DNA of 51,423 bases, taken from assembly GCA_021849615.1 (NCBI GenBank), contig JAJZSQ010000009.1:1-51423 (forward strand), written 5' to 3'. The notes beneath the pieces were generated by a model. The model saw only the letters and a program-made list of their open reading frames with translations, ran no database searches and was not told where the DNA came from. Positions 25,865 to 39,675 of this stretch are shown here, one piece after another. The stretch comes from Pseudomonadota bacterium (lineage in GTDB: Bacteria; Pseudomonadota; Gammaproteobacteria; Steroidobacterales; Steroidobacteraceae). Within the stretch, counting starts at the first letter, position 1; every line of letters begins with the position of its first letter. The position numbers and the translations under genes were made by a program.

Positions 25865-27268
25865 TCAACCGAAGCGCTCGCGCAGCAGGCGGTACAGCGC
25901 TCGCACGCACTGCGCCTCGGCGCCCACCGGGCGGCCGGGACGCTCCTTGCCATTCCATGCGTACAGATCGATGTGCACCCAATCGGTGGTGCCGCCGATG
26001 AAGCGCTGCAGAAACAGTGCCGCGATGATGGAGCCGGCGAATGGCGTGGATGCAACATTACCGAGGTCGGCTATTTTGCTGGCCAGATCCTCTTCGTAGC
26101 CTGCCCACAACGGCATCGGCCAGAGCGGATCGCACTCCGCCTCGCCAATCTGGCGCAGCCGTTCGGCGAGCGCTGGCCGATTGCTGTAGAGGGCGGGCAA
26201 CTCCGGACCGAGCGCGGTGCGCGCCGCTCCGGTCAGGGTCGCCAAATCGATGATGAGCTGCGGGCGCTCCTCTTCCGCAGCCGCCAGCGCATCGGCGAGC
26301 ACCAGCCGCCCCTCGGCATCCGTGTTGCCGATCTCGACCGTCAGGCCCTTGCGCGAGCGCAGCACGTCGCTCGGCCGGTACGCCGCGCCGCCGACGCTGT
26401 TCTCCACCGCCGGGATCAGCACGCGCAGCTGCACCGGCGCCTCGAGGCGCATCAGCAGATCCGCCAGTGCCAGCGCGCACGCGGCCCCGCCCATATCTTT
26501 CTTCATCAGCGCCATGGCACTCGCCGGCTTCAGGTCGAGCCCGCCGGTGTCGAAGCACACCCCCTTGCCGACCAGCGTCACGCGCGGGGCGTCCTTCTCG
26601 CCCCAGCGCAGATCGATCAGCCGCGGCTCACGCACGCTGCCGGCGCCGACGGCGCGCAACAGCGGAAATCCGGAGAGCTCCCCGCCGCTGAGGACCTGGC
26701 AGCGGGCGCCGCGTTCGCGCGCGAGCGCCACGGCCGCATCGGCCAGCTCCTGCGGTCCAAGGTCATTCGGCGGGGTATTGATCAGATCGCGCGCCAGAGC
26801 GCTCGCCTGGGCCGCGGCGAGCGCGTAACGCACGTCAGCCTCCGGCGGGGCGATCAGCGCCGCGCCCGGACCATACGGTGCGTCCAGCCGATAGCGGTTC
26901 ATGCGGTAGCCGCCGAGCAGCCAGCCGAGCACGAAGTGCGTCGCGGCGTCCGCCGGCAGCGCCGTACCGAGCCGCCACGGCAGCGCCGGAAGTCGTTCGG
27001 TGGCCGCGGCCGCGTGCCAGGGCCCGAGCGCGCCGGCCGAGGGCAGTGCCCCGAGACCGAGCAGCGCCCCGGCGACGCCCTCCTCGCCCGGCACCGTCAG
27101 GACGCGGTAGCGCTCGCCCTGAAAACCATGCGCGCGTACCCAGCCGGCGAGCGCGCCGTTTTGCTGAGCGAGCCAGGCGTGCAGTTCGCCTTCCCCGAGC
27201 AACCACAGCGGGCGGCTCTCCCCCGGATCGCTCTTCAATAACAATTCGTGTGACACGGGGCGGAGCAT
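25865..27268 (-). CDS. Leucyl aminopeptidase, peptidase family M17
   Basis: A 467-residue cytosolic aminopeptidase that releases N-terminal residues using two metal ions. The family signature NTDAEGRL is present, as is VGKGVCFDTGGLDLKPASAMALMKKDMGGA, which supplies the metal-binding Lys and Asp. The N-terminal non-catalytic domain is shorter and more divergent than in PepA (about 500 residues), so an exact PepA label is not given. ATG 27268 (MLRPVSHELLL) is chosen; the frame stays open upstream without ATG. It is divergent from the ilvC leader. Confidence 0.93.
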   Translation of the reverse strand: MLRPVSHELLLKSDPGESRPLWLLGEGELHAWLAQQNGALAGWVRAHGFQGERYRVLTVPGEEGVAGALLGLGALPSAGALGPWHAAAATERLPALPWRLGTALPADAATHFVLGWLLGGYRMNRYRLDAPYGPGAALIAPPEADVRYALAAAQASALARDLINTPPNDLGPQELADAAVALARERGARCQVLSGGELSGFPLLRAVGAGSVREPRLIDLRWGEKDAPRVTLVGKGVCFDTGGLDLKPASAMALMKKDMGGAACALALADLLMRLEAPVQLRVLIPAVENSVGGAAYRPSDVLRSRKGLTVEIGNTDAEGRLVLADALAAAEEERPQLIIDLATLTGAARTALGPELPALYSNRPALAERLRQIGEAECDPLWPMPLWAGYEEDLASKIADLGNVASTPFAGSIIAALFLQRFIGGTTDWVHIDLYAWNGKERPGRPVGAEAQCVRALYRLLRERFG

Positions 27269-27312
27269 AGCGCGGGGCGCGCACGAGCCGCCAGCGATGT
27301 GCACACGCCGCG

Positions 27313-27342
27313 TTGACAAGTGCGCGCCGAGTGTGCTCCTAT
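27313..27342 (+). promoter_or_regulatory. Promoter of the ilvC-leuA-ilvE-leuCDB operon
   Basis: A consensus -35 TTGACA (27313-27318) and a -10 like TCCTAT (27337-27342) are separated by 18 bases. It lies just before the leader peptide and attenuator and would start transcription near 27347-27350. A perfect TTGACA is rare in this GC-rich window. Confidence 0.7.
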
Positions 27343-27388
27343 CGGGACCATCATCTCCACTTTAATCTCGTCCCGGCACCCAAAGCCC

Positions 27389-27526
27389 GTGGTACCTGCA
27401 GCCAACATCGTCCGAACTCCGCTGGCGTCGCGCACGCCGCTGGCGCGCCTCGGCCGACTGCCGGTACTTCTTATCGGACTGCTGCTCCTTACGAGCAGCC
27501 GGTGCGGGGTGCTCGCAATCGCCTGA
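27389..27526 (+). CDS. Leader peptide of the branched-chain amino-acid operon
   Basis: A 45-codon frame (GTG 27389 to TGA 27524-27526) encodes a peptide with 18 Leu/Ile/Val residues. The core LPVLLIGLLLL (27458-27490) includes four successive Leu codons CTG CTG CTC CTT at 27479-27490. These codons overlap the first attenuator hairpin, and the stop codon lies between the second and third attenuator segments, the standard arrangement for a leader peptide that senses charged tRNA. The start is uncertain: no Shine-Dalgarno precedes GTG 27389 and no ATG is in frame. Confidence 0.8.
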   Translation: MVPAANIVRTPLASRTPLARLGRLPVLLIGLLLLTSSRCGVLAIA

Positions 27527-27598
27527 GGACACACAGGCAGGGGCGAGAGAAGACACCAGAACCCCGCACCGGCACTGAAGGCCGCTGCGGGGTTTTTT
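27481..27598 (+). promoter_or_regulatory. Transcription attenuator with pause, antiterminator and terminator hairpins
   Basis: Three competing structures are visible. Pause hairpin: GCTGCTC (27481-27487) with GAGCAGC (27493-27499). Antiterminator: a perfect 13-bp pairing of 27498-27510 (GCCGGTGCGGGGT) with 27561-27573. Terminator: 27562-27573 with 27581-27592 (12 positions, one C-C mismatch, 7-base loop) followed by six T at 27593-27598. Ribosome stalling at the Leu codons would free 27498-27510 to pair with 27561-27573 and prevent the terminator. Reaching the stop codon would cover that segment and allow termination before ilvC. Confidence 0.92.
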
Positions 27599-27663
27599 GT
27601 GTGCGTCAATGTACGACCGAAATCTGACATCCGGGCCATCCGGCCGATTTGGAGTATCGAGAG

Positions 27664-28659
27664 ATGAAGCTGTATTCGCAAAAAGACGTCGACCAGAAGG
27701 CCCTGCGCGGGGCGCGCATTGCGGTCATGGGCTATGGCAGCCAGGGCCGCGCCCATGCGCTGAACCTCAAGGACAGCGGCTTTGACGTCATCGTGGGTGC
27801 CCGCAAGGGCGGGCCCGGATGGAAGAAGGCCAAGAAGGACGGTCTGGCGGTTGCCGAGCCGGTGAGCGCGGCGAAGGACGCCGACCTGATCGCGATGCTG
27901 GTCCCCGACTTGGCGCAGAAGGCGCTCTACGAGAGCATCGAGCCGGCGATCAAGCAGGGTGCGACGCTGCTGTTCGCGCACGGGTTCAACATTCACTTCA
28001 AGCAGATCAAGCCGCGCAAGGATCTCGACGTGGTGCTGATCGCCCCGAAGGGTCCCGGCGATCTGGTGCGCCGCCAGTACCAGCAGGGCCGCGGCGTGCC
28101 GTGCCTGATTGCGGTAGCCCAGAACGCCACCGGTCAGGGCAAGAAGCGCGCGCTGGCGTATGCGCACGGCATCGGCGGCACGCGCGGCGGGGTGCTCGAG
28201 ACGACGTTCGCCGAGGAAACCGAGACCGATCTGTTCGGTGAGCAGGCGGTGCTGTGCGGCGGGGCGACCGAACTGGTGGTGCGCGGCTGGGAGACGCTGG
28301 TCGAAGCCGGCTACCAGCCCGAGGTGGCCTACTACGAGTGCCTGCATGAGCTGAAGCTCATCGTCGATCTGCTGCACGAGGGCGGCATCACCAAGATGCA
28401 CGAGTTCATCAGTGAGACGGCCAAGTACGGGGACCTGACGCGCGGCCCGCGCATCGTCGATGCACGCGTGAAGAAGGAGATGGCCAAGGTGCTCAAGGAG
28501 ATCCAGACCGGCGCCTTCGCGCGCCAGTGGATTCGCGAGAACGCCGGCGGACGCAAGCGTTACGCGAAGCTGCTCAAGAGCGACCTGAAGCACCCGATCG
28601 AGAAGGTCGGCGCCAAGCTGCGCGCGCGCATGCCCTGGCTGAACGACCAGCGCGCTTAA
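27664..28659 (+). CDS. ilvC: Ketol-acid reductoisomerase, class I
   Basis: Second step of Val/Ile synthesis: Mg2+-dependent isomerisation and NADPH reduction of acetohydroxyacids. The 331-residue class I short form has the dinucleotide motif [10 protein letters not shown] (about 23-32), [15 protein letters not shown], and the metal-binding stretch [17 protein letters not shown] 27664 is used because GGAG lies 9 bases upstream and [10 protein letters not shown] is the normal family start. First gene of the attenuator-controlled operon. No acetolactate synthase (ilvBN/IH) or ilvD is nearby. Confidence 0.97.
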
Positions 28660-28696: not shown

Positions 28697-30274
28697 ATGG
28701 CAGCCGAACCGGACAAAGTACTGATCTTCGATACCACCCTGCGCGACGGCGAACAGGCCCCCGGATGCAGCATGACGCAGCCGGAGAAGCTGCGGGTCGC
28801 CCGGGCGCTCGCCGAACTCGGCGTCGATGTGATCGAAGCGGGTTTCCCGGCGGCCTCCAAGGGGGACTGGGAGAGCGTACAGGCGGTCTCGCGCACGATC
28901 GAAGGCCCGATCATCGCCGGCCTGGCTCGCTGCAACCGCGAGGACATCGAACTCGCCGCCCGCGCCCTCGCCGATGCACCGCGGCGGCGGCTGCACGTGT
29001 TCCTCGCCACCAGCGCGATTCACCGCCAGTACAAACTGAACATGGCCGAGGAGCAGATCCTGCGCACCGCCGTCGACGGCGTGCGCCGTGCCCGTGAACT
29101 GTGCGAGGACGTGGAGTTCTCGCCTGAGGACGCCTCGCGCACCGAGCTGGAATTCCTGGCGCAGGTGGTCGAGGCGGCCATCGAGGCCGGCGCGAGCACG
29201 GTGAACATCCCCGATACCGTCGGCTACACGGTGCCGGATGAGTTCGCCGAGCTGTTCCGCTACCTACGCAAGAACGTGCGCGGCATCGAGCGGATCCGCC
29301 TCTCGGTGCACTGCCACGACGATCTGGGCATGGCCGTGGCGAACAGCCTAACGGCCGTGGTCGCCGGCGCCCGCCAGGTCGAGTGCACGATCAACGGCAT
29401 CGGGGAGCGCGCCGGCAACTGCTCGCTCGAGGAAGTGGTGATGGCGCTGAAGACGCGCGCTGCGTTCTTCAATGTCACCACCGGCATCCAGACCACGCGG
29501 CTGTATCCGACCTCGCGCCTGGTCTCGAGCATCACCGGGATGACCGTGCCGCGCAACAAGGCGGTGGTCGGTGAGAACGCCTTCGCACACGAGGCAGGCA
29601 TTCATCAGCATGGCGTGCTCAAGCACCACTCGACCTACGAGATCATGCGTCCGGAGGACGTGGGGCTCGCCCGCAGTCATTTGATTCTCGGCAAGCACAG
29701 CGGCCGGCACGCCTTTCGCGACCGGGTGCGCGCACTCGGCTTCGAGCTGCAGGAGAGCGAGCTCAACGAGGTGTTCGAGGAGTTCAAGGCACTCGCGGAC
29801 CGCAAGAAGGAGCTCTTCGACGGCGACATCGAGGCGCTCGTGCTGCGCGCCGGGGGCGCGGCGAACGGCCCGTGGAGTCTCGCCGCCCTGGAGACGCAGG
29901 CGGCGATGCAAGGACCGGCCACGACGAAGGTCCTGCTGCGCCACAGCGATGGGCGCGAGGTGGAACAGACCGCCGATGGCGACGGACCGGTCGATGCCGC
30001 CTTCAAGGCGATCGAGGCGGCGACCGGGCTCGGGGTGATGCTGCGCAAGTTCGAGGTGCGCGGCGTCACGGAGGGCGAGGACGCCCAGGGCGAGGCGGTG
30101 GTGTACGTAGAGTACAATCAACGAACCTATCGGGGCTCGAGCGTGAGCACCAACATCGTGGAATCGAGCAGCAAGGCGTTCCTCGAGGTGATCAACCGCA
30201 TCGAGCAGGCAGCCGCAGGCAGCCGCTCGCGCGAGGAGCGCGGTGCCGGCGCACAGACCGCTTCGACGCTTTGA
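28697..30274 (+). CDS. leuA: 2-isopropylmalate synthase
   Basis: Condenses acetyl-CoA with 2-ketoisovalerate, the committed step of leucine synthesis. The 525-residue protein has the signature FDTTLRDGEQAPG near the N-terminus, the metal site HCHDDLGMAVANS, NGIGERAGNCSLEEVVMALK, and a C-terminal regulatory LeuA dimer domain (about 395-510) that usually mediates leucine feedback. ATG 28697 has AAGGAG upstream. Length matches LeuA1-type enzymes (515-525). Confidence 0.97.
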   Translation: MAAEPDKVLIFDTTLRDGEQAPGCSMTQPEKLRVARALAELGVDVIEAGFPAASKGDWESVQAVSRTIEGPIIAGLARCNREDIELAARALADAPRRRLHVFLATSAIHRQYKLNMAEEQILRTAVDGVRRARELCEDVEFSPEDASRTELEFLAQVVEAAIEAGASTVNIPDTVGYTVPDEFAELFRYLRKNVRGIERIRLSVHCHDDLGMAVANSLTAVVAGARQVECTINGIGERAGNCSLEEVVMALKTRAAFFNVTTGIQTTRLYPTSRLVSSITGMTVPRNKAVVGENAFAHEAGIHQHGVLKHHSTYEIMRPEDVGLARSHLILGKHSGRHAFRDRVRALGFELQESELNEVFEEFKALADRKKELFDGDIEALVLRAGGAANGPWSLAALETQAAMQGPATTKVLLRHSDGREVEQTADGDGPVDAAFKAIEAATGLGVMLRKFEVRGVTEGEDAQGEAVVYVEYNQRTYRGSSVSTNIVESSSKAFLEVINRIEQAAAGSRSREERGAGAQTASTL

Positions 30275-30301: not shown

Positions 30302-31261
30302 ATGCCCATTCCGGCCACTCAGTACATTTGGTTCAACGGCAAGCTCGTTCCGTGGGAAAAGGCCACGGTGCACGTGCTCAGCCACGCCCTGCACTATGGC
30401 TCCTCGGTGTTCGAGGGGCTGCGTGCCTATGAGACGCACCGCGGCGTGGCGATCTTCCGGCTGCGCGATCACTCCCGCCGCCTGCTCGACTCGGCCAAGA
30501 TCTACCGCATGAGCATGCCGTTCACCGTCGGGCAGATCGATGAGGCCTGCCGCGCGGTGATCGCCGCCAACGGACTCGCCAAGGGCGCGTACATCCGCCC
30601 GGTCGCCTTCCGCGGCTACGGCGAAATTGGCGTCACGCCAAAGAATGAGCCGCCGACCGAGGTGGCCGTGGCCGCCTGGGAGTGGGGTAAATACCTCGGT
30701 CACGAGAGCGAGGAGCAAGGCGTCGATGCCTGCATCTCCTCCTGGCACCGCGTCGCGCCGAACACGCTGCCGGCGCTCGCCAAGGCCGGTGGCAACTATC
30801 TCTCGAGCCAGCTGATCGGTGCCGAGGCGCGCCGCCTGGGCTTCCACGAGGGCATTGGACTGGCGCCCGACGGCACGCTCAGCGAGGGCTCCGGTGAGAA
30901 CCTGTTCGTGGTCAAGGACGGCGTGCTGCTCACCCCCGCCCTCGCCCACTCAGTGCTCGGTGGCATCACGCGCGACTCGGTGATGCGCCTGGCGCGCGAG
31001 CGCGGCATCGAGGTGCGCGAGTGCGCCATTCCGCGCGAACTGCTCTATATAGCCGATGAGGCATTCTTCACCGGCACCGCGGTCGAGATCACCCCGATCC
31101 GCTCGGTCGACCGCCTCATGGTCGGTGCCGGCAAACGCGGCCCGATCACCGAGACGCTGCAGAAGGCGTTCTTCGGGCTGTTCTCCGGCGAGACGCCCGA
31201 TCAATGGGGTTGGCTCGATCACGTCGACATGGCAGCGGCCCCGGCTGCGGCGGCGCGCTGA
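30302..31261 (+). CDS. ilvE: Branched-chain amino-acid aminotransferase
   Basis: A fold-type IV PLP enzyme that makes Leu, Ile and Val from their keto acids with glutamate. The 319-residue product begins with [26 protein letters not shown], has RGYGEIGV, the PLP lysine K161 in [12 protein letters not shown], and [14 protein letters not shown]. Length is typical of IlvE (about 308). It is placed between leuA and leuC, so the last shared step is co-controlled with the leucine-specific ones. TGATG links it to leuC. Confidence 0.96.
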
Positions 31262-32664
31262 TGGCGGCACCGCAGACTCTGTTCGAGAAGGTCTGGCGCC
31301 ACCACGAGGTGGTGGCCGAGACCGCCGACACCCCGGCGGTGCTGTATATCGACCTGCACCTGATCCACGAGGTTACCTCGCCGCAGGCCTTCACCGTGCT
31401 GCGCCAGCGCGGCCTCGGGTTGCGCCGGCCCGAGCGCACCTTCGCCACCATGGATCACTCGACGCCGACGCGCACCGAGCAGGTCTTCGGCGACGCGCCG
31501 ATCACGCTCGAGGATGCGGCCCGCCAGGTCAGTGAGCTCGAGCGCAACTGTGCCGCTTTCGGCGTCGAGCTGCTCGGGCTGCGCGATGCGCGCCGCGGGA
31601 TCGTTCACATCATCGGGCCGGAACTCGGCCTGACGCAGCCGGGCAAGACCGTGGTCTGCGGCGACAGCCACACCAGCACGCACGGCGCGCTCGGTGCGCT
31701 CGCGTTCGGCATCGGCACGACCGAGGTCGGGCACGTCTTCGCCACTCAGTGCCTGCTGCAGCGCAAGCCGCGCACTCTCGCCATCAACGTCAACGGGGCT
31801 CTGCAGCCGGGCGTCACGGCCAAGGATCTGATCCTCGCCATCATCGGGCGCATCGGCGTCGGGGGCGGCACCGGCCACGTCATCGAGTACCGCGGTGAGA
31901 CGATCCGCGCACTCGACATGGACGCACGCATGACCGTGTGCAACATGTCGATCGAGGCTGGCGCCCGCGCCGGCATGATCGCTCCGGACGAAACGACGTT
32001 CCGCTACCTCGCCGGCCGGCCGCGCGCGCCGCAGAGCGAGGCCTGGGCCGCAGCGCTCGAGCGCTGGCAGCAGCTGCCCGGCGATCCGGGCGCACGCTTC
32101 GACCGCGAAGTGGACATCGATGCCGCGGCGCTCGAGCCGATGATGACCTTCGGCACGAATCCCGGCATGGTTATTCCGATCGGCGGGACGATCCCGGAGC
32201 GCACTGGTGATCCGGCGTTCGCCAAGTCGCTCGCCTACATGGGCTTCGCCCCCGGGGAGCGCATCCAGGAACACCCGGTGAACGTGGTGTTCGTCGGCAG
32301 CTGCACCAACGGGCGGCTCTCGGATCTGCGCGCCGCGGCCTCGCTGCTGCGCGGACGCAAGATCGCCTCCGGCGTGCACATGCTCGTCGTGCCGGGCTCG
32401 CAGCAGGTCAAACGCGACGCCGAGGCCGAGGGACTCGACCGCATCTTCATCGACGCGGGCGCGGAGTGGCGCGAGTCGGGCTGCTCGATGTGCCTCGGCA
32501 TGAACGGGGATCTGGTGCCCAAGGGGCACTACGCCGTCAGCACCAGCAACCGCAACTTCGAGGGCCGTCAGGGCATCGGGGCCCGCACCCTGCTCGCCAG
32601 CCCGCTCACCGCCGCCGCCTGCGCCGTGCGCGGGCGCGTGACCGATCCGAGGGAATTGCTGTAA
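31261..32664 (+). CDS. leuC: 3-isopropylmalate dehydratase large subunit
   Basis: The 467-residue aconitase-family subunit of isopropylmalate isomerase. The [4Fe-4S] ligands are in [13 protein letters not shown] and in [33 protein letters not shown] is another family hallmark. ATG 31261 overlaps the last base of the ilvE stop codon; it gives the usual start ([17 protein letters not shown]), matching E. coli LeuC in length (466). Confidence 0.97.
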
Positions 32665-33245
32665 TGGAACCTATCCGCACCCTGCGCTCGCGCACCGTGG
32701 TGCTGCCGGTGAGCGACGTCGACACCGACCAGATCATTCCGGCGCGCTTTCTCACCACCACGACGCGAGAGGGTCTGGGCAAGCACCTCTTCGCCGACTG
32801 GCGCTACGCGCCCGACGGCAGCGCACGGCCTGACTTCGTACTGAATCAGCCGCAGGCCGCCGGCTGCACCGTCCTCGTGGCCGGACGCAACTTTGGCTGC
32901 GGCTCCTCACGCGAGCACGCCCCCTGGGCGCTCACCGACTTCGGGCTGCGCGCGGTGATCAGCACCCAGTTCGCCGATATCTTCCGCAGCAACGCCCTGA
33001 AGAACGGTCTGCTGCCGGTGCTGCTCGAGCAGGATGCGCACCGCTGGCTGCTCGAGCACCCGGGCGCGGACGTCACGATCGATCTGGAAAGCACCACGCT
33101 GACGCTGCCGACGGGCGCCGCGGTGCACTTCCCGCTCGAGCCGTTCGCGCGCTACTGCCTCACCAACGGCGTCGATGAGCTCGGCTTCCTGCTCGGCCGC
33201 GCCGCGCAGATCGACTCCTACGAATCACAGCGGAGCCGGCCATGA
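32664..33245 (+). CDS. leuD: 3-isopropylmalate dehydratase small subunit
   Basis: The 193-residue swivel-domain partner of Leu[25 protein letters not shown] and [15 protein letters not shown] are diagnostic for LeuD. ATG 32664 shares one base with the leuC stop (TAATG), so the two subunits are translationally coupled. The C-terminus ([12 protein letters not shown]) is complete. Confidence 0.97.
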
Positions 33246-34297
33246 AGGCGCACATCGCCGTACTGCCGGGCGATGGCATCGGCCCGGAGGTCACCGCCGA
33301 GGCCGTGCGCTGTCTGCGGCGGCTCGCCGAGCGCCACGGCCACGAGTTCACCCTCACCGAACAGCCCTTCGGTGGCGCGGCCATCGACCTGACCGGCGAG
33401 CCGCTGCCGGCACACACCCTCGAGACCTGTCTCAAGGCCGACGCGGTGCTGCTCGGGGCGATCGGCGGCCCGAAATGGTCGGCTCCGGAGGCGAAGGTGC
33501 GCCCCGAGCAGGGACTGCTCGGTCTGCGCCGCGCACTCGGGGTGTACGCCAATCTGCGTCCGGTGAAAGTCCACCCGGCGCTGCTCGGCGCCTCGACGCT
33601 CAAGCCGGAGATCCTCGCGGACGTCGATCTGGTGTTCGTCCGCGAACTCACCGGCGGGATCTACTTCGGCGAGAAGCGCCGCGAGGCCGATTCGGCCACC
33701 GACGTGTGCACCTACACGGTCGGCGAAGTCGAACGCATCGTGCGCGTCGCGGCACGACTGGCGCAGCAGCGCCGCGGCCGGCTCGTGTCGATCGACAAGT
33801 CGAACGTGCTCGAGACCTCGCGTCTGTGGCGCCAGGTGACGAGCCGAGTGATGCGCGAGGAATTCCCCGAGGTGACCCTCGAGCACATGCTGGTCGACTC
33901 CGCAGCCATGCACCTGATCCGCCGTCCGCGCGAGTTCGACGTGCTGGTGACCGAGAACATGTTCGGTGACATTCTGACCGATGAGGCCTCGATGCTCGCC
34001 GGCTCGCTCGGCCTGCTGCCGTCGGCCTCCCTCGGCGAGGGACGGCGGGGGCTGTACGAGCCGATCCACGGCTCGGCGCCCGACATTGCCGGCCGCGGCA
34101 TCGCCAATCCCTGCGGCACGCTGCTCAGCGTCGCGATGCTGCTGCGTCACTCGCTAGGACTCAGCGCCGAAGCCGATGCACTCGAGCGGGCCGTCGCGGC
34201 CGCGATCGACATCGGCGCCCGCACTGCGGACATCGCCGGGAATGGCCCGGCGGCAACGACCCGGGAAGCCGGCGAGGCGGTGCTCAGCCGACTGTGA
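33242..34297 (+). CDS. leuB: 3-isopropylmalate dehydrogenase
   Basis: NAD-dependent oxidative decarboxylase, third leucine-specific step. The 351-residue protein has [28 protein letters not shown], the substrate-binding [13 protein letters not shown], and the metal/NAD region [27 protein letters not shown] and [15 protein letters not shown] 33242 overlaps the leuD stop by 4 bases. It ends the operon; no clear intrinsic terminator is seen in the 84 bases that follow. Confidence 0.97.
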
Positions 34298-34381: not shown

Positions 34382-35174
34382 ATGATGGTGCGAGCCGTTG
34401 CATTCGCCATGGTCGCAGTCCTCGCCGCCGCGCTCAGCGGCTGCGCCGGCGGAGCGCGGCGGCCACAGACGGGATGCCGCTGCGGGAAGCTCGTGCGCAC
34501 CCGTACCGTCACGGCCAATCCTGCCGCCTAATCTGGCCGAACATTTCCAGCCGGCGCAACTCCCGGGCAGCGTACAAGCACGCATCGAACGGAGCGGCAC
34601 GCCCACCCCGCGCTTTCACCAGCTGCTCGTCACGCGCCAGTTCGTGCGCCACGTCCTGCGCACCAATGCGCGCGTCACAATCGACGTCACCGACCGGATC
34701 ATGGGCTTTCGCGGCGGATACCTGCAAGACCGCGAGCAACTCGAGTTCAACTCGATTCCCACCGCTCTGAACCTGAATCTGAGCTATCTCGGACTGTTCA
34801 GCCTCGAGACCCAAAGCCTGCGCTATCGCTTCGGGCTCGCGCCCAAGCCCATCAGGCTGCAGCAGTTGCTCGCCCTTACCCCCGGAGTGGCACACCCGCA
34901 GCCGGGGCAGACCTACCGCCTCTCGGTGCGTTGGCGGCGCGGGGTGACGGACGAGACCTGCTCTGCCGGGCGGCGCCTGCATCGGGCGAGCAGGCTGCAG
35001 GAGGCGCGGCCGGGGCACCTGCTCAATCTGCGCTGCACGATCTCGCGCAACGGCATCGTGCGGGCGCGCGACCGGGTGGGCTTCCTCACCGCTTACGGGC
35101 TGTATCTGATCCTCGAGCGCAAAACGGCCGCCTTCACCGCGCGCGGCCGGATCGTGAGCATCAAGCGCATCTAG
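34382..35174 (+). pseudogene. Putative lipoprotein, apparently split by a frameshift
   Basis: From ATG 34382 (or 34385) the sequence encodes a lipoprotein signal peptide, VRAVAFAMVAVLAAALSGCAGG, whose lipobox is LSGC. This frame ends at TAA 34529-34531 after only 49 codons. In another frame a much longer coding stretch runs to TAG 35174 (about 215 residues from PPNLAEHFQ on), with a plausible secreted-protein composition but no start or signal of its own. One extra or missing base between about 34450 and 34520 would join the two. I do not recognise the family. A sequencing error, a genuine pseudogene, or two separate genes remain possible. Confidence 0.5.
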
Positions 35175-36346
35175 GTTGACGCGCGGGCCCGTGCCAGACC
35201 CGCCTCGAGATCGGCGCGCAGATCCTCCAGCGCCTCGATACCGACCGACAGTCGGATCAGACCATCGGTGAGCCCCGCCTTGGCGCGCGCGACCGGATCC
35301 ATCGCGGCATGGGTCATGGTCGCCGGATGCGCCACCAGGCTCTCGACGCCGCCGAGCGACTCGGCGAGCGAGAAATATTCCAGACCCTCGCAAAACGCGC
35401 GTACCGCGGCGAGCCCACCGGCGAGCTCCACCGTGACGATCGCGCCGAAGCCGCGCTGCTGACGCCGCGCCACCTCGTGTCCGGCATGACTCGCCAGCCC
35501 CGGATAATAGACCCGGCTCACACCCTGCTCGCCCGTGAGCCATTCAGCGAGCGCCTGGGCATTGCGCCCGTGCTGCTCGAGCCGGGCGTGCAGCGTGCGC
35601 AGCCCGCGCAGCGTGAGGAAACTGTCGAAGGGAGAACCGGTGAGCCCGAGGCAGTTGGCCCACCAGGCGAGCTCATCGTGCACCTCCCGCTCGCGCGCCA
35701 CGACCGCCCCGCCGACCACGTCGCTGTGGCCGTTGAGGTACTTGGTCGTGGAGTGCACGACGACATCGGCGCCGAGAGCGAGCGGCTGCTGCCACGCCGG
35801 GGACAGGAAGGTGTTGTCGACGGCCACCCGTGCGCCGGCGGCATGGCCGAGCGCGGCGACCTGCTCGATATCCGTGATGCGCAGCAGCGGGTTGCTCGGC
35901 GTCTCGATCCACAGCAGCGCGGCCGGGCGCGACAGTGCCGCCCGCAGCGCCACCTCGTCGGCGAAATTGACGAACTCCACCTCGCGCTCACCGCGGCGCC
36001 GCCAGGCATCGAACAACCGGTACGTTCCGCCATAACAGTCGTGCGGCGCAACGATTCGCCCACCGGCCGGCACGAGGTATCCGGTGAGGGTCACGCCCGC
36101 CATGCCGGTAGCCGTGACGACCGCCCCGGCGCCGCCCTCGAGCTGTGCGAGCGCTCCGCCCAGCAGGTCGCGGGTGGGATTGCCCGAGCGGGTGTAGTCG
36201 TAGCGGCCCTTCTCGCCGAAGGCGCGGAACGCGAACGTCGAGCTCAGATGAATCGGCGGCACGACGGCACCGGTGGAGGGATCGGACTCCAGGCCCGCGC
36301 GCACGGTGCGGGTCACTTGCGATTTCGGATCGTTGGACGGACTCAT
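35171..36346 (-). CDS. metB: Cystathionine gamma-synthase / O-succinylhomoserine sulfhydrylase family
   Basis: A 391-residue Cys/Met metabolism PLP enzyme that exchanges the succinyl (or acetyl) group of activated homoserine for cysteine or sulfide. Key motifs are YDYTRSGNPTRD (phosphate binding in the neighbouring subunit), the PLP lysine K202 in HSTTKYLNGHSDVVGG and SLGGVESLVAHPATMTHA. ATG 36346 directly follows the metX stop, so both share the SAM riboswitch upstream. Sequence alone cannot separate MetB from MetZ activity. The 3' end overlaps by 4 bases the convergent lipoprotein gene. Confidence 0.9.
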   Translation of the reverse strand: MSPSNDPKSQVTRTVRAGLESDPSTGAVVPPIHLSSTFAFRAFGEKGRYDYTRSGNPTRDLLGGALAQLEGGAGAVVTATGMAGVTLTGYLVPAGGRIVAPHDCYGGTYRLFDAWRRRGEREVEFVNFADEVALRAALSRPAALLWIETPSNPLLRITDIEQVAALGHAAGARVAVDNTFLSPAWQQPLALGADVVVHSTTKYLNGHSDVVGGAVVAREREVHDELAWWANCLGLTGSPFDSFLTLRGLRTLHARLEQHGRNAQALAEWLTGEQGVSRVYYPGLASHAGHEVARRQQRGFGAIVTVELAGGLAAVRAFCEGLEYFSLAESLGGVESLVAHPATMTHAAMDPVARAKAGLTDGLIRLSVGIEALEDLRADLEAGLARARAST

Positions 36347-37387
36347 TCAGCAGGTGCTCTCGAAGAGCGGCGCGAACACGCCGCGAAGTTGCTGGGATTC
36401 CTTCAGGAACGCATCGTGGCCGTAGATCGAGGAGATCTCGCACAGGCGCGCCACATGCAGCCGCGCCACCAGTGCGCGCACCTCGCTCAGGGGCACGAGC
36501 ATGTCCTCGCGCACGGCCACGGCCGTGGTCGGCACGCAGATGCGGCCCGCCTCGACGCGGTGCAGATCGATCGATTCGGACAGACACAGGAACGCCTCGG
36601 GACGGTGTTCGGCCGCATAGCTCGCGCCGCGCGCGGCCAGATACCGCTCGACGGGCAGGCGCGCCCGGCCGTCCTCGAAGACCGGCGGGCCGGCGAAGCG
36701 CGCGGCGAACTCCTCGCCGCTTCGGTACGTGGACATCGCGAGCGCCCGCGCCAGCGCGAGGGCTTCAGCCGGACGGCCGGCCTGAAGTCCAAACCGCACG
36801 ATGTCGCGCTGCACCGCCCGCCAGGCCGATCCCAGCGGGTGCGGCCGATCCGTGGCGCACAGGACGATCAGCGCACCGACGCGCTCGGGGAAGCGCTCGC
36901 CGAAGGCGAGCGCGACCATGCCGCCGTAGGATCCGCCGGCGATCGCCCGCAGCGCCTTGATGCCGAGGTGATCGAGCAGGCGCGCGAGCACTTCGGCCTG
37001 ATCGTACGTGGAGATGCTCGGGAATGCCTCCCCGGGACGCGGACCGGTGCTCTCGCCGCTGCCGCCGAGATAATCGAAGCTCAGCACCCGGCAACGCTCG
37101 GTGTCGAGCGGACGGCCGGGACCGGCGATCTCGGACCACCACCCCTGGCGGGGCTGCTCGGTCAGACACACGCGCCGATGTGCGGAAATCCCCCCGAGCG
37201 CGCAGACCACGGGCGCGCTCGGCGCACCGGCCAGCCGCCACGCGATGCGCACATCGGGCAGCCGCCCGCCGTGGTGCAGGTGCAGGCCGCCGGGCATCTC
37301 GAAAATCCCTTCGCGCACGGACTCGCTTGGTGCACTCCGCACAGGGGACTGCGCCTCGATCGGGCGAACCTCAGCAATCGCGTTCAT
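36347..37387 (-). CDS. metX: Homoserine O-acyltransferase, alpha/beta-hydrolase MetX type
   Basis: Activates homoserine for methionine synthesis. The 346-residue alpha/beta-hydrolase has the nucleophile elbow GGSYGGM (Ser153), the oxyanion region VCALGGISAHR and SFDYLGGSGES, and the catalytic His in SSIYGHDAFLKES. In Xanthomonas-type bacteria MetX homologues of this shape use succinyl-CoA; acetyl-CoA is the alternative, so acyl specificity is left open. ATG 37387 has GGAG 8 bases upstream within a potential sequestering helix, downstream of a SAM-I riboswitch. Confidence 0.93.
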   Translation of the reverse strand: MNAIAEVRPIEAQSPVRSAPSESVREGIFEMPGGLHLHHGGRLPDVRIAWRLAGAPSAPVVCALGGISAHRRVCLTEQPRQGWWSEIAGPGRPLDTERCRVLSFDYLGGSGESTGPRPGEAFPSISTYDQAEVLARLLDHLGIKALRAIAGGSYGGMVALAFGERFPERVGALIVLCATDRPHPLGSAWRAVQRDIVRFGLQAGRPAEALALARALAMSTYRSGEEFAARFAGPPVFEDGRARLPVERYLAARGASYAAEHRPEAFLCLSESIDLHRVEAGRICVPTTAVAVREDMLVPLSEVRALVARLHVARLCEISSIYGHDAFLKESQQLRGVFAPLFESTC

Positions 37388-37468: not shown

Positions 37469-37500
37469 CCGCACCGAGAGGTGCGAAGCCACACAGTTCG

Positions 37501-37631
37501 CTCATCTGTCGATTCAGTCGGGCCCGCACTCGGATCCGGATGCATCGCAGGAGTTGGCACCTTAACAGACTGGTTAGGTCTGGCGGTTGCCCCGGCGTCT
37601 AAGGGCCTATCCCTCAGCCGGTCTCGATGAG
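37501..37631 (-). ncRNA. SAM-I (S-box) riboswitch aptamer upstream of metX
   Basis: Reading the reverse strand, the S-box consensus is present in order. P1 5' arm CTCATC (37626-37631) is followed by GAGA; P2 is CCGGC/GCCGG enclosing GAGGGA (37610-37615) and GGCCC (37603-37607). GGCAACC is at 37585-37591. P3 is CAGAC/GUCUG. GGTGCCAACTCC is at 37550-37561. The 3' end reads GACAGATGAG, whose GATGAG (37501-37506) closes P1. The location, about 110 bases before metX-metB, fits SAM repression of methionine synthesis. Confidence 0.92.
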
Positions 37632-37692
37632 TTGCGCTGAGTGTAGGAGGACCGGTGCGCCCGGTCAAGCAAGCCGGTGCGAGCGCCGCCGC

Positions 37693-38393: not shown

Positions 38394-38786
38394 ATGAAAA
38401 CACATCGCAGCCTCACGCCCCGCCAGGAAGCGCTCGCCGAGCGCAATCTGTACACCGCGATCGCCGCCCTGCGCGATGCCGAGGAGGTGCGCGCGTTCTT
38501 CCGCGACCTGTGCACCCCGGCGGAACTGCAGGCGATGTCCGATCGCTGGTCGGTCGTCGATTACCTGAGCCGCGGCCTGCCGTACCGGGAAATTCATCAG
38601 CTCACCGGCGTCAGCGTCACGACCATCGGCCGAGTGGCACGGTTCCTCGCCACCGGCAACGGCGGCTACGGACTGGTCGCGCAGCGCCTCGGCAAATGGC
38701 ACCTGCATGCCGCCCGGGCCGCCGCCTCGGCCTCGAGCGAACCGGCCGCTGCGCCTCGTCGCCGCGAAGGGGCGCGCAATGGATGA
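38394..38786 (+). CDS. TrpR/YerC-family transcriptional regulator heading the his operon
   Basis: A 130-residue protein with a TrpR-like helix-turn-helix: EVRAFFRDLCTPAELQAMSDRWSVVDYLSRG, then PYREIHQLTGVSVTTIGRVARFLATGNGGYG. The latter is very close to the YerC/YecD subgroup (TTISRVSRxLxxGxGGY). A variable Ala-rich C-terminus follows. ATG 38394 is chosen. Its end overlaps hisG by 8 bases, so it is the first gene of the his operon. TrpR-family regulators have been predicted to control histidine genes in some bacteria. The ligand is unknown; histidine is a reasonable guess. Confidence 0.88.
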   Translation: MKTHRSLTPRQEALAERNLYTAIAALRDAEEVRAFFRDLCTPAELQAMSDRWSVVDYLSRGLPYREIHQLTGVSVTTIGRVARFLATGNGGYGLVAQRLGKWHLHAARAAASASSEPAAAPRRREGARNG

Positions 38787-39675
38787 ACCGCGTCTGAAGC
38801 TCGCCATCCAGAAATCCGGCCGCCTGACCGACCCATCGCTCGATCTGCTCACCCGCTGCGGTCTGAAGATCTCCCGCGGCAAGGACCAGCTGATGGCGTT
38901 CGGGGAAAACATGCCGCTCGACGTGCTGTTCGTGCGCGACGACGACATCCCGGACCTGGTGCAGGAGGACGTGTGTGACCTCGGGCTGGTCGGACTGAAC
39001 GTGCTCGAGGAGAAACGCCACGAGCTCGCCGCGCGCGGCCATCCAGTGCGCTTCGAGGCGCTGCGCACGCTCGATTTCGGCCGCTGCCGGCTCTCCCTCG
39101 CGGTGCCCGAAGGCCAGCCGTTCGACGGTCGGCGCAGCCTCGAAGGCAAGCGCATCGCCACGACCTATCCGTACCTGCTCGAGCACTATCTGCGCGAGCG
39201 TTCGATTGCCGCGGACATCGTCACGCTCTCCGGGGCCGTGGAGATCGCCCCGCGCCTGGGACGCGCCGATCTGATCTGCGATCTGGTCTCGACCGGCTCG
39301 ACCCTGCAGGCCAATCACCTGCGCGAGGTCGAGACCGTGCTCGAGAGCCACGCAGTGCTGATCCGCACGCCCGTCACGCTGCCGCCACTGAAGAACGAGT
39401 GGGTCGAGCGGCTGCTGATGCGCATCGAGGGCGTGCAGCAGGTGCGCGAGAGCAAATACATCATGCTGCATGCCCCGCGCTCGGCGCTCGAGGAGATCCG
39501 CCGGCTGCTGCCCGGCAGCGAATCCCCGACCATCATTCCGCTCGAGGGCTTCCCCGACCGAGTCGCCGTGCACGCCGTGTGCCGCGAGAACGTGTTCTGG
39601 GAAACGCTCGAACGGCTCAAACAGGCCGGCGCCAGCGCCCTGCTGGTGTTGCCCGTGGAAAAGATGCTCTCCTGA
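38779..39675 (+). CDS. hisG: ATP phosphoribosyltransferase, long form
   Basis: First, feedback-regulated step of histidine synthesis (ATP + PRPP). The 298-residue long form begins MDEPRLKLAIQKSGRLTDPSLDLLTRCGLKIS and includes DLGLVGLNVLEE, PRLGRADLICDLVSTGSTLQANHLRE (PRPP-binding) and a C-terminal ACT-like regulatory domain (about 225-298, with SPTIIPLEG), so it needs no HisZ. ATG 38779 gives the usual family start. Confidence 0.97.
   Translation: MDEPRLKLAIQKSGRLTDPSLDLLTRCGLKISRGKDQLMAFGENMPLDVLFVRDDDIPDLVQEDVCDLGLVGLNVLEEKRHELAARGHPVRFEALRTLDFGRCRLSLAVPEGQPFDGRRSLEGKRIATTYPYLLEHYLRERSIAADIVTLSGAVEIAPRLGRADLICDLVSTGSTLQANHLREVETVLESHAVLIRTPVTLPPLKNEWVERLLMRIEGVQQVRESKYIMLHAPRSALEEIRRLLPGSESPTIIPLEGFPDRVAVHAVCRENVFWETLERLKQAGASALLVLPVEKMLS

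Follow-up and report, generated by a model that had tools for sequence, protein, structure and literature searches.

The region upstream of ilvC in the 51,423-nucleotide stretch of DNA analyzed here (hereafter, the window) very probably encodes a transcription attenuator that works through the ribosome, senses charged tRNA-Leu and would make the ilvC-leuA-ilvE-leuCDB operon responsive to leucine. An earlier note on this DNA had proposed leucine-sensing attenuation, and this is still the best reading: it is backed by the conservation of the leader, a fold switch, a bias toward CTT among the Leu codons of the leader and an association between such codons and leuA, all of which were established by the analysis along with the parts themselves. 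The parts and the genes that follow them are listed below.

27313-27342, + strand: promoter, with the -35 element TTGACA at 27313-27318 and a weak extended -10 element, TGTGCTCCTAT, with its hexamer at 27337-27342
27349-27388, + strand: putative 5' untranslated region of ~40 nt without a clear Shine-Dalgarno (SD) site, counted from a predicted transcription start
27389-27526, + strand: leader peptide frame, with a GTG start, 45 sense codons and a TGA stop at 27524-27526
27467-27490, + strand: control region, CTT CTT ATC GGA CTG CTG CTC CTT
27481-27499, + strand: pause hairpin (strand 1 and the 5' part of strand 2), 27481-27487 with 27493-27499, 7 pairs
27498-27510, + strand: antiterminator strand 2, 13 of 13 bases pairing with 27561-27573
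27512-27547, + strand: intermediate hairpin between strands 2 and 3 (CTCGC/GCGAG and GCCTG/CAGGC), from predicted folds
27561-27573, + strand: strand 3, common to antiterminator and terminator, ACCCCGCACCGGC
27561-27598, + strand: intrinsic terminator, 27561-27568 with 27586-27593 and 27570-27573 with 27581-27584, followed by a T-run to 27598
27664-28659, + strand: ilvC, ketol-acid reductoisomerase (Pfam KARI_N, KARI_C)
28697-30274, + strand: leuA, 2-isopropylmalate synthase (Pfam HMGL-like, LeuA_dimer)
30302-31261, + strand: ilvE-like class IV aminotransferase (Pfam Aminotran_4)
31204-32664, + strand: leuC (aconitase family), start uncertain, overlapping the preceding ORF
32466-33245, + strand: leuD (Pfam Aconitase_C), start uncertain
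33242-34297, + strand: leuB (Pfam Iso_dh)

The operon thus runs on the + strand in the order ilvC-leuA-ilvE-leuCDB, with ilvC at 27664 as its first gene, and the nearest named matches of its IlvC belong to uncultured gammaproteobacterial, 'Proteobacteria' and Steroidobacteraceae bins. The parts described in the earlier note were found in place, namely the consensus TTGACA, the 45-codon frame, four consecutive Leu codons (CTG CTG CTC CTT, 27479-27490), the 7-bp pause hairpin over these codons, the perfect 13-bp antiterminator and the terminator (hairpin 27561-27593) with its T-run. Accordingly, the leader frame carries a run of codons for the product of the operon, the pause hairpin overlaps these control codons, and the antiterminator and terminator are mutually exclusive. 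The -10 hexamer (TCCTAT) is poor; in many close loci, TTGACA is likewise present, with TGTG and a comparable hexamer after it at equal distance. A promoter scan reported nothing for the leader promoter at its threshold, and the terminator pattern of the same scan (loop 3-8) listed two other sites and not the leader terminator.

The RNA folding check suggested in the earlier note supported a switch between two structures. The leader (27380-27600) folded with a z score of -2.58, which was equaled by 1 of 200 shuffled sequences, and the minimum-energy fold of the intact RNA contained the pause hairpin and the terminator. When the RNA was trimmed from its 5' end to 27493, 27495 or 27498, the fold changed to the 13-pair antiterminator, and RNAs beginning at 27500 or later returned to the terminator. 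We also generated 5000 synonymous leaders, in which the peptide was fixed and codons were drawn from the usage of the window genes; 2.9% of these matched the pause hairpin and 0.46% matched the antiterminator. The pause hairpin and strand 2 are therefore better than codon choice following gene usage would usually give.

We infer that transcription starts as predicted, that the leader is translated, that ribosomes stall on it, and that transcripts terminate or continue according to leucine; these steps would be connected in the following manner. RNA polymerase would transcribe the short leader, in whose reading frame CTT, CTC and CTG codons make up a run of Leu. When charged tRNA-Leu is scarce, the ribosome would stall on 27479-27490, open the pause hairpin and leave 27498-27510 free to pair with 27561-27573 once the latter has been made; because strand 3 is then occupied by strand 2, the terminator could not form and ilvC-leuA-ilvE-leuCDB would be transcribed. 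When leucine is plentiful, the ribosome would reach the TGA at 27524, which lies 14 bases past strand 2, and would cover strand 2 or release it into the pause hairpin, so that strand 3 would pair with strand 4 and transcription would end near 27598. When a ribosome stalls, its leading edge is 12-14 bases past the first base of the codon in the A site. Under this geometry, the pause hairpin would be broken and 27498-27510 left free or nearly free if the A-site codon were CTG 27479, CTG 27482 or CTC 27485; a stall on CTT 27488 would be borderline, and a stall on CTT 27467 would still allow the pause hairpin to form.

We searched for IlvC in 60 relatives and obtained matches in 54. A core set of 33 loci was assembled, of which 29 came from this search and four from named contigs; because one of them (L004) is a repeat over the aligned part, 32 leaders were aligned, all preceding ilvC and belonging to the same genus or close to it. 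Strand 3 (ACCCCGCACCGGC) was invariant in all 32, the terminator pairing was kept at 12/12 in 31 leaders and 11/12 in one, and the antiterminator retained 9-13 of its 13 pairs in every leader (32/32). The pause hairpin was complete in the register of the window in 18 of the 32 and, as judged by eye, appears to have re-formed in a shifted register in several others (e.g. L024 and L028). Changes on both sides were seen at 5 of its 7 pairs. For the whole structure, the number of doubly changed cells was reached by none of 500 shuffles and the number of doubly changed pairs by 15 of 500. Compensating changes were sought between strands 2 and 3 and between strands 3 and 4 of the core set, and none were found. 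Only the pause hairpin is thus backed by compensation, since strands 3 and 4 are near-invariant and strand 2 varies without compensation. The earlier note had called for conserved Leu codons and covarying stems in related genomes: the frame, Leu codons and stems do recur before ilvC, but the covariation is confined to the pause hairpin.

Beyond the core set, a covariance model of these leaders was applied to the order with a cutoff of E ≤ 0.001. It matched 174 of 396 genomes, which belong to 42 of 72 genera; these counts include some weak matches and are inflated by some that represent the terminator on the opposite strand. In the same genus, 36 of the genomes listed were matched and 5 listed were missed. 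Of the 217 genomes of the family, 94 contained a pattern of the form CCCCGCACCGG...CCGNTGCGGGG. Most of them had it at a single site, but G120 had three and G316 and G109 two each; one site in G258 was read on both strands. The reversed control pattern had no match in the 217 family genomes. Among the 18 meaningful regions around model matches, 16 had leu or ilv genes directly downstream, and the L145 region, re-fetched as L163, is an ilvC leader. One match (L150, in G056) is placed not ahead of an operon but after an ilvB encoded on the opposite strand, and is likely a false positive. In the genome of the window itself, the model found no match elsewhere at E < 0.05 except this hairpin itself read on its other strand, and no similar attenuator was seen by eye upstream of ilvB (C214:7888). 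A further match in this genome (C84:21745, E = 0.05) proved to be the leader of another gene, asd, and was rejected as a copy.

The choice of Leu codons in the leader is also distinctive. CTT accounts for 2 of the 265 Leu codons in seven window genes (an eighth stretch was left out because it is not a clean reading frame) and for 3 of the 11 in the leader (Fisher's exact test, P = 0.0005). A similar tendency was observed for 43 leaders that were hand-picked to spread over genera and include one duplicate (L061/L176): in 36 of these 43, the CTT share exceeded that of the genes of the same operon (sign test, P = 9e-6). The earlier note had pointed to four consecutive Leu codons; the run is present, but the most constant part in the core set is CTC-CTT and not all four codons. 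The exceptions to CTC-CTT were CTT-CTT (L028, L048), CTC-CTG (L017, L036) and CTC-CTA (L020), and TTG and TTA were rare in the control run of the core-set leaders. CTA codons occur in the control region of four other leaders (L037, L038, L039 and L041). Selective charging of isoacceptors offers grounds for favoring particular control codons (PMC1183508). CTT may be a charging-sensitive codon in these leaders.

Leu codons in the leader go with leuA in the operon. In G002, a genome of the same genus, the leader stands directly before leuA-leuC-leuD-leuB, and the one ilvC among the matches listed, which is 59% identical, is elsewhere on the contig. When distinct operon starts were read mechanically, the leader had more Leu codons than Ile and Val codons together in 73 of 77 operons containing leuA without ilvB, compared with 2 of 5 operons with ilvB and 2 of 7 without leuA in view (73/77 versus 4/12 for the others; Fisher's exact test, P = 3e-6, with sequences that are related and not independent). 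This count excludes 24 operon starts without a leader frame, among them two loci with leuA and without ilvB (L017 and L064), of which L017 has a Leu leader that the mechanical pattern missed; it retains a spurious frame in L171 and probably others in L047 and L058, as well as one locus that reaches a contig end (L025). The locus L147 holds two operons, one of them with a leuA leader. The four leuA operons read mechanically as lacking a Leu-majority leader were L037, L041, L043 and L171; a different frame of L171 is rich in Leu, and the leader of L043 has just two Leu codons among its last 22 although leuA is present. Two Steroidobacter loci (L056 and L057) contain ilvC-ilvE-leuCDB with no leuA in view, and their leaders have a Val/Ile-rich run ending in two Leu codons, and relatives with ilvC-ilvB operons have mixed Ile/Val/Leu runs.

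These mixed runs, together with the Val and Ile codons (GTA and ATC) near the Leu run of the window leader, are what would be expected if the attenuator sensed all three branched-chain amino acids instead of leucine alone. We consider this unlikely for the window, because the Ile codon is variable in close loci (Thr in L013, Ser in L035) and precedes the pause hairpin, so that a ribosome stalled there would, from the inferred geometry, leave the hairpin largely free to form. Strong conservation of the RNA around strands 2-4 could in turn indicate a leader that binds a metabolite or protein, with the peptide being incidental; however, no Rfam family lies over the leader at gathering score, the conserved bases are explained by strand 3 having two pairing partners, and the control codons track operon content, so that this explanation is barely credible.

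It is also very improbable that the hairpin is a constitutive terminator before ilvC, accompanied by a Leu-rich frame that arose by chance and free of translational regulation. The hairpin is indeed strong as an intrinsic terminator in its own right, and four loci without leuA (L040, L046, L051 and L053) have a terminator-like hairpin with no leader frame found. However, the gene upstream of the leader, encoding an M17 aminopeptidase, is on the opposite strand, which means that the terminator acts on a + strand transcript running into ilvC. Moreover, the start, length and Leu run of the leader are kept in the closest loci even though the first half of the peptide diverges, and strand 2 and the pause hairpin are lost in most synonymous shuffles. 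Separately, we observed that these four loci have ilvC followed by leuC with no leuA in view, and that they share with L058, in which only ilvC is in view, two features upstream of ilvC, a terminator-like hairpin and a sequence resembling TTGCATCATAAGAGATTCTGTGGTGCTATT; no leader peptide was recognized there.

The weak point of leucine-sensing attenuation, as the earlier note had seen, is the initiation of the leader peptide at GTG without a clear SD site or an ATG. The window leader indeed has no clear SD site and no ATG: the anti-SD duplex upstream of the leader GTG was -1.7 kcal/mol, compared with -7.1 for ilvC, -8.5 for leuA, -7.4 for ilvE, -3.7 for leuC and -5.8 for leuB, and a duplex of -4.1 kcal/mol at the leader lies over the start codon itself. 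The difficulty is eased by the relatives. An in-frame GTG at the position of the window was kept in all 15 closest loci (L002-L015 and L035), in which the leader comprises 45 codons in 14 cases and 46 in one, and a downstream ATG, absent from the window leader, occurs in 11 of the 15. Over 58 loci, an in-frame ATG stood 35-39 bases past the first base of the -35 hexamer, where transcription is expected to start, in 20 cases; the 58 include one repeat (L155 = L038), one locus with no -35 found (L018), and at least three in which the -35 was mis-picked inside the leader (L045, L065 and L147), although a separate reading of L065 placed its ATG at 37. From their sequences, many relatives' leader peptides look leaderless, and a start without an SD site is common to the window's group of leaders.

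In one genus (g24), leaders of this build precede not only leu and ilv genes but also pheA. G120 and G316 have such leaders before leuA (Leu codons), ilvC (Val/Ile/Leu) and pheA (Phe codons), the leuA leader of G316 differing in strands 3 and 4, and the pheA leader of G399 contains four Phe codons in a row. We assessed 28 of 30 pheA loci, since two begin at a contig end, and a loose pattern found the hairpin within 250 bases upstream of pheA in 3 of the 28, all in g24; in two other g24 loci (L278 and L297), it was not found within this distance. A much-changed pheA leader elsewhere could be missed, because only five loci were read by eye. As judged by eye, the Phe leader and pheA adjoin an apparent ilvD on the other strand in L270, L271 and L272 (G120, G399 and G316, respectively).

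We compared the phe leaders upstream of strand 3 with other leaders in 21 likeness tests without correction. Against the G120 leu leader, 0, 0 and 1 of 1000 shuffles were as good (G120, G316 and G399, respectively), whereas 53-812 of 1000 did as well against the window leader and 156-717 of 1000 against the ilvC leaders, so that neither of these comparisons was significant; the G316 phe leader showed no likeness to the leu leader of its own genome (158 of 1000). Since the tests fail for the ilvC leaders upstream, the ilvC copies are tied to the common chassis mainly by strands 3 and 4. When the leu and phe leaders of G120 are aligned, they have the string CTTCTTCT in common, and a one-base gap lies between this run and strand 2; as a result, the bases of CTTCTTCT read CTT CTT (Leu) in one leader and TTC TTC (Phe) in its counterpart. 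A leader that relies on CTT for control may thus have been a single indel short of sensing Phe. The simplest reading of the phe leaders is duplication with codon replacement, and we lean slightly toward regarding these leaders as copies of one homologous attenuator chassis, re-tuned in nature to different amino acids by the exchange of control codons. Convergence on a favorable hairpin is a possible alternative origin of the phe leaders.

Several other elements were observed in the window and its genome. The asd leader (L114 1480-1625 in G000:C84) contains a short frame with many Lys, Thr, Ile and Met codons (MTPMKTRTITLKKPGDGALGECVR), ending 32 bases before a terminator-like hairpin and preceding a gene that we took by eye to encode aspartate-semialdehyde dehydrogenase. 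A similar peptide was present in all 20 loci read, and 34 of 58 genomes of the genus had a match. From its sequence, this leader is possibly a Lys/Thr attenuator; folds of its truncated forms gave no antiterminator flip. On the - strand of the window, a SAM riboswitch (37499-37633; Rfam RF00162, 73 bits), the only match in the window at gathering score, precedes a pair of genes encoding an alpha/beta hydrolase (36347-37387) and a Cys_Met_Meta_PP protein (35171-36346). On the + strand, within 38397-39675, a reading starting MKTHRSLTPRQ, noted by eye and resembling a TrpR-like regulator, is located immediately ahead of the hisG ORF or extends into it, and his genes follow; no His-rich leader was noticed by eye near hisG in this interval.

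The present analysis adds a well-conserved Leu attenuator, unmatched in Rfam, to what is known of Steroidobacteraceae-like bacteria and related gammaproteobacteria, most of them uncultured. The relatives of this element offer natural tests of attenuation theory: a leader that stands on leuA while ilvC is elsewhere, a shift from Leu to Ile/Val codons according to operon content, a preference for rare Leu codons, initiation without an SD site, and one lineage in which a Leu sensor apparently became a Phe sensor while the RNA frame was kept. At gathering score, no Rfam family, including Leu_leader (RF00512), T-box and riboswitches, was found over the leader, and relaxing the threshold to E ≤ 10 over 27250-27700 yielded three weak matches, all on the - strand and none to Leu_leader. 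Proteobacterial attenuators were reportedly treated by Vitreschak et al. in 2004, and no description of this leader was found in the titles and abstracts covered, which exclude most subscription papers. The mechanism is a textbook one, and the element is very probably new to this bacterial lineage.

The leu attenuator of E. coli and Salmonella (leuL) is alike in having a Leu-rich leader peptide, a pause hairpin and a competing antiterminator and terminator before leu genes, and also in the rare Leu codons of its run, which are CUA in E. coli and CTT or CTA here. It differs from the present element, which precedes ilvC-leuA-ilvE-leuCDB, encodes a 45-codon peptide (that of E. coli is shorter), lacks an SD site and has no Rfam match. 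The attenuator peptide of Sinorhizobium meliloti trpL (PMC7298713) and the leader peptides of Streptomyces lividans leuL1, leuL2 and ilvL (PMC8079986) are leaderless, and they resemble the present leaders, by description, in lacking an SD site and in the ATG at the predicted transcription start of many relatives; unlike them, the window leader would have ~40 nt of SD-less 5' region before its GTG. Finally, the attenuator design based on isoacceptor charging (PMC1183508) shares with these leaders the enrichment of control codons for particular synonymous codons, whereas here the choice differs by lineage, with CTT/CTC in the group of the window and CTA in L037, L038, L039 and L041.
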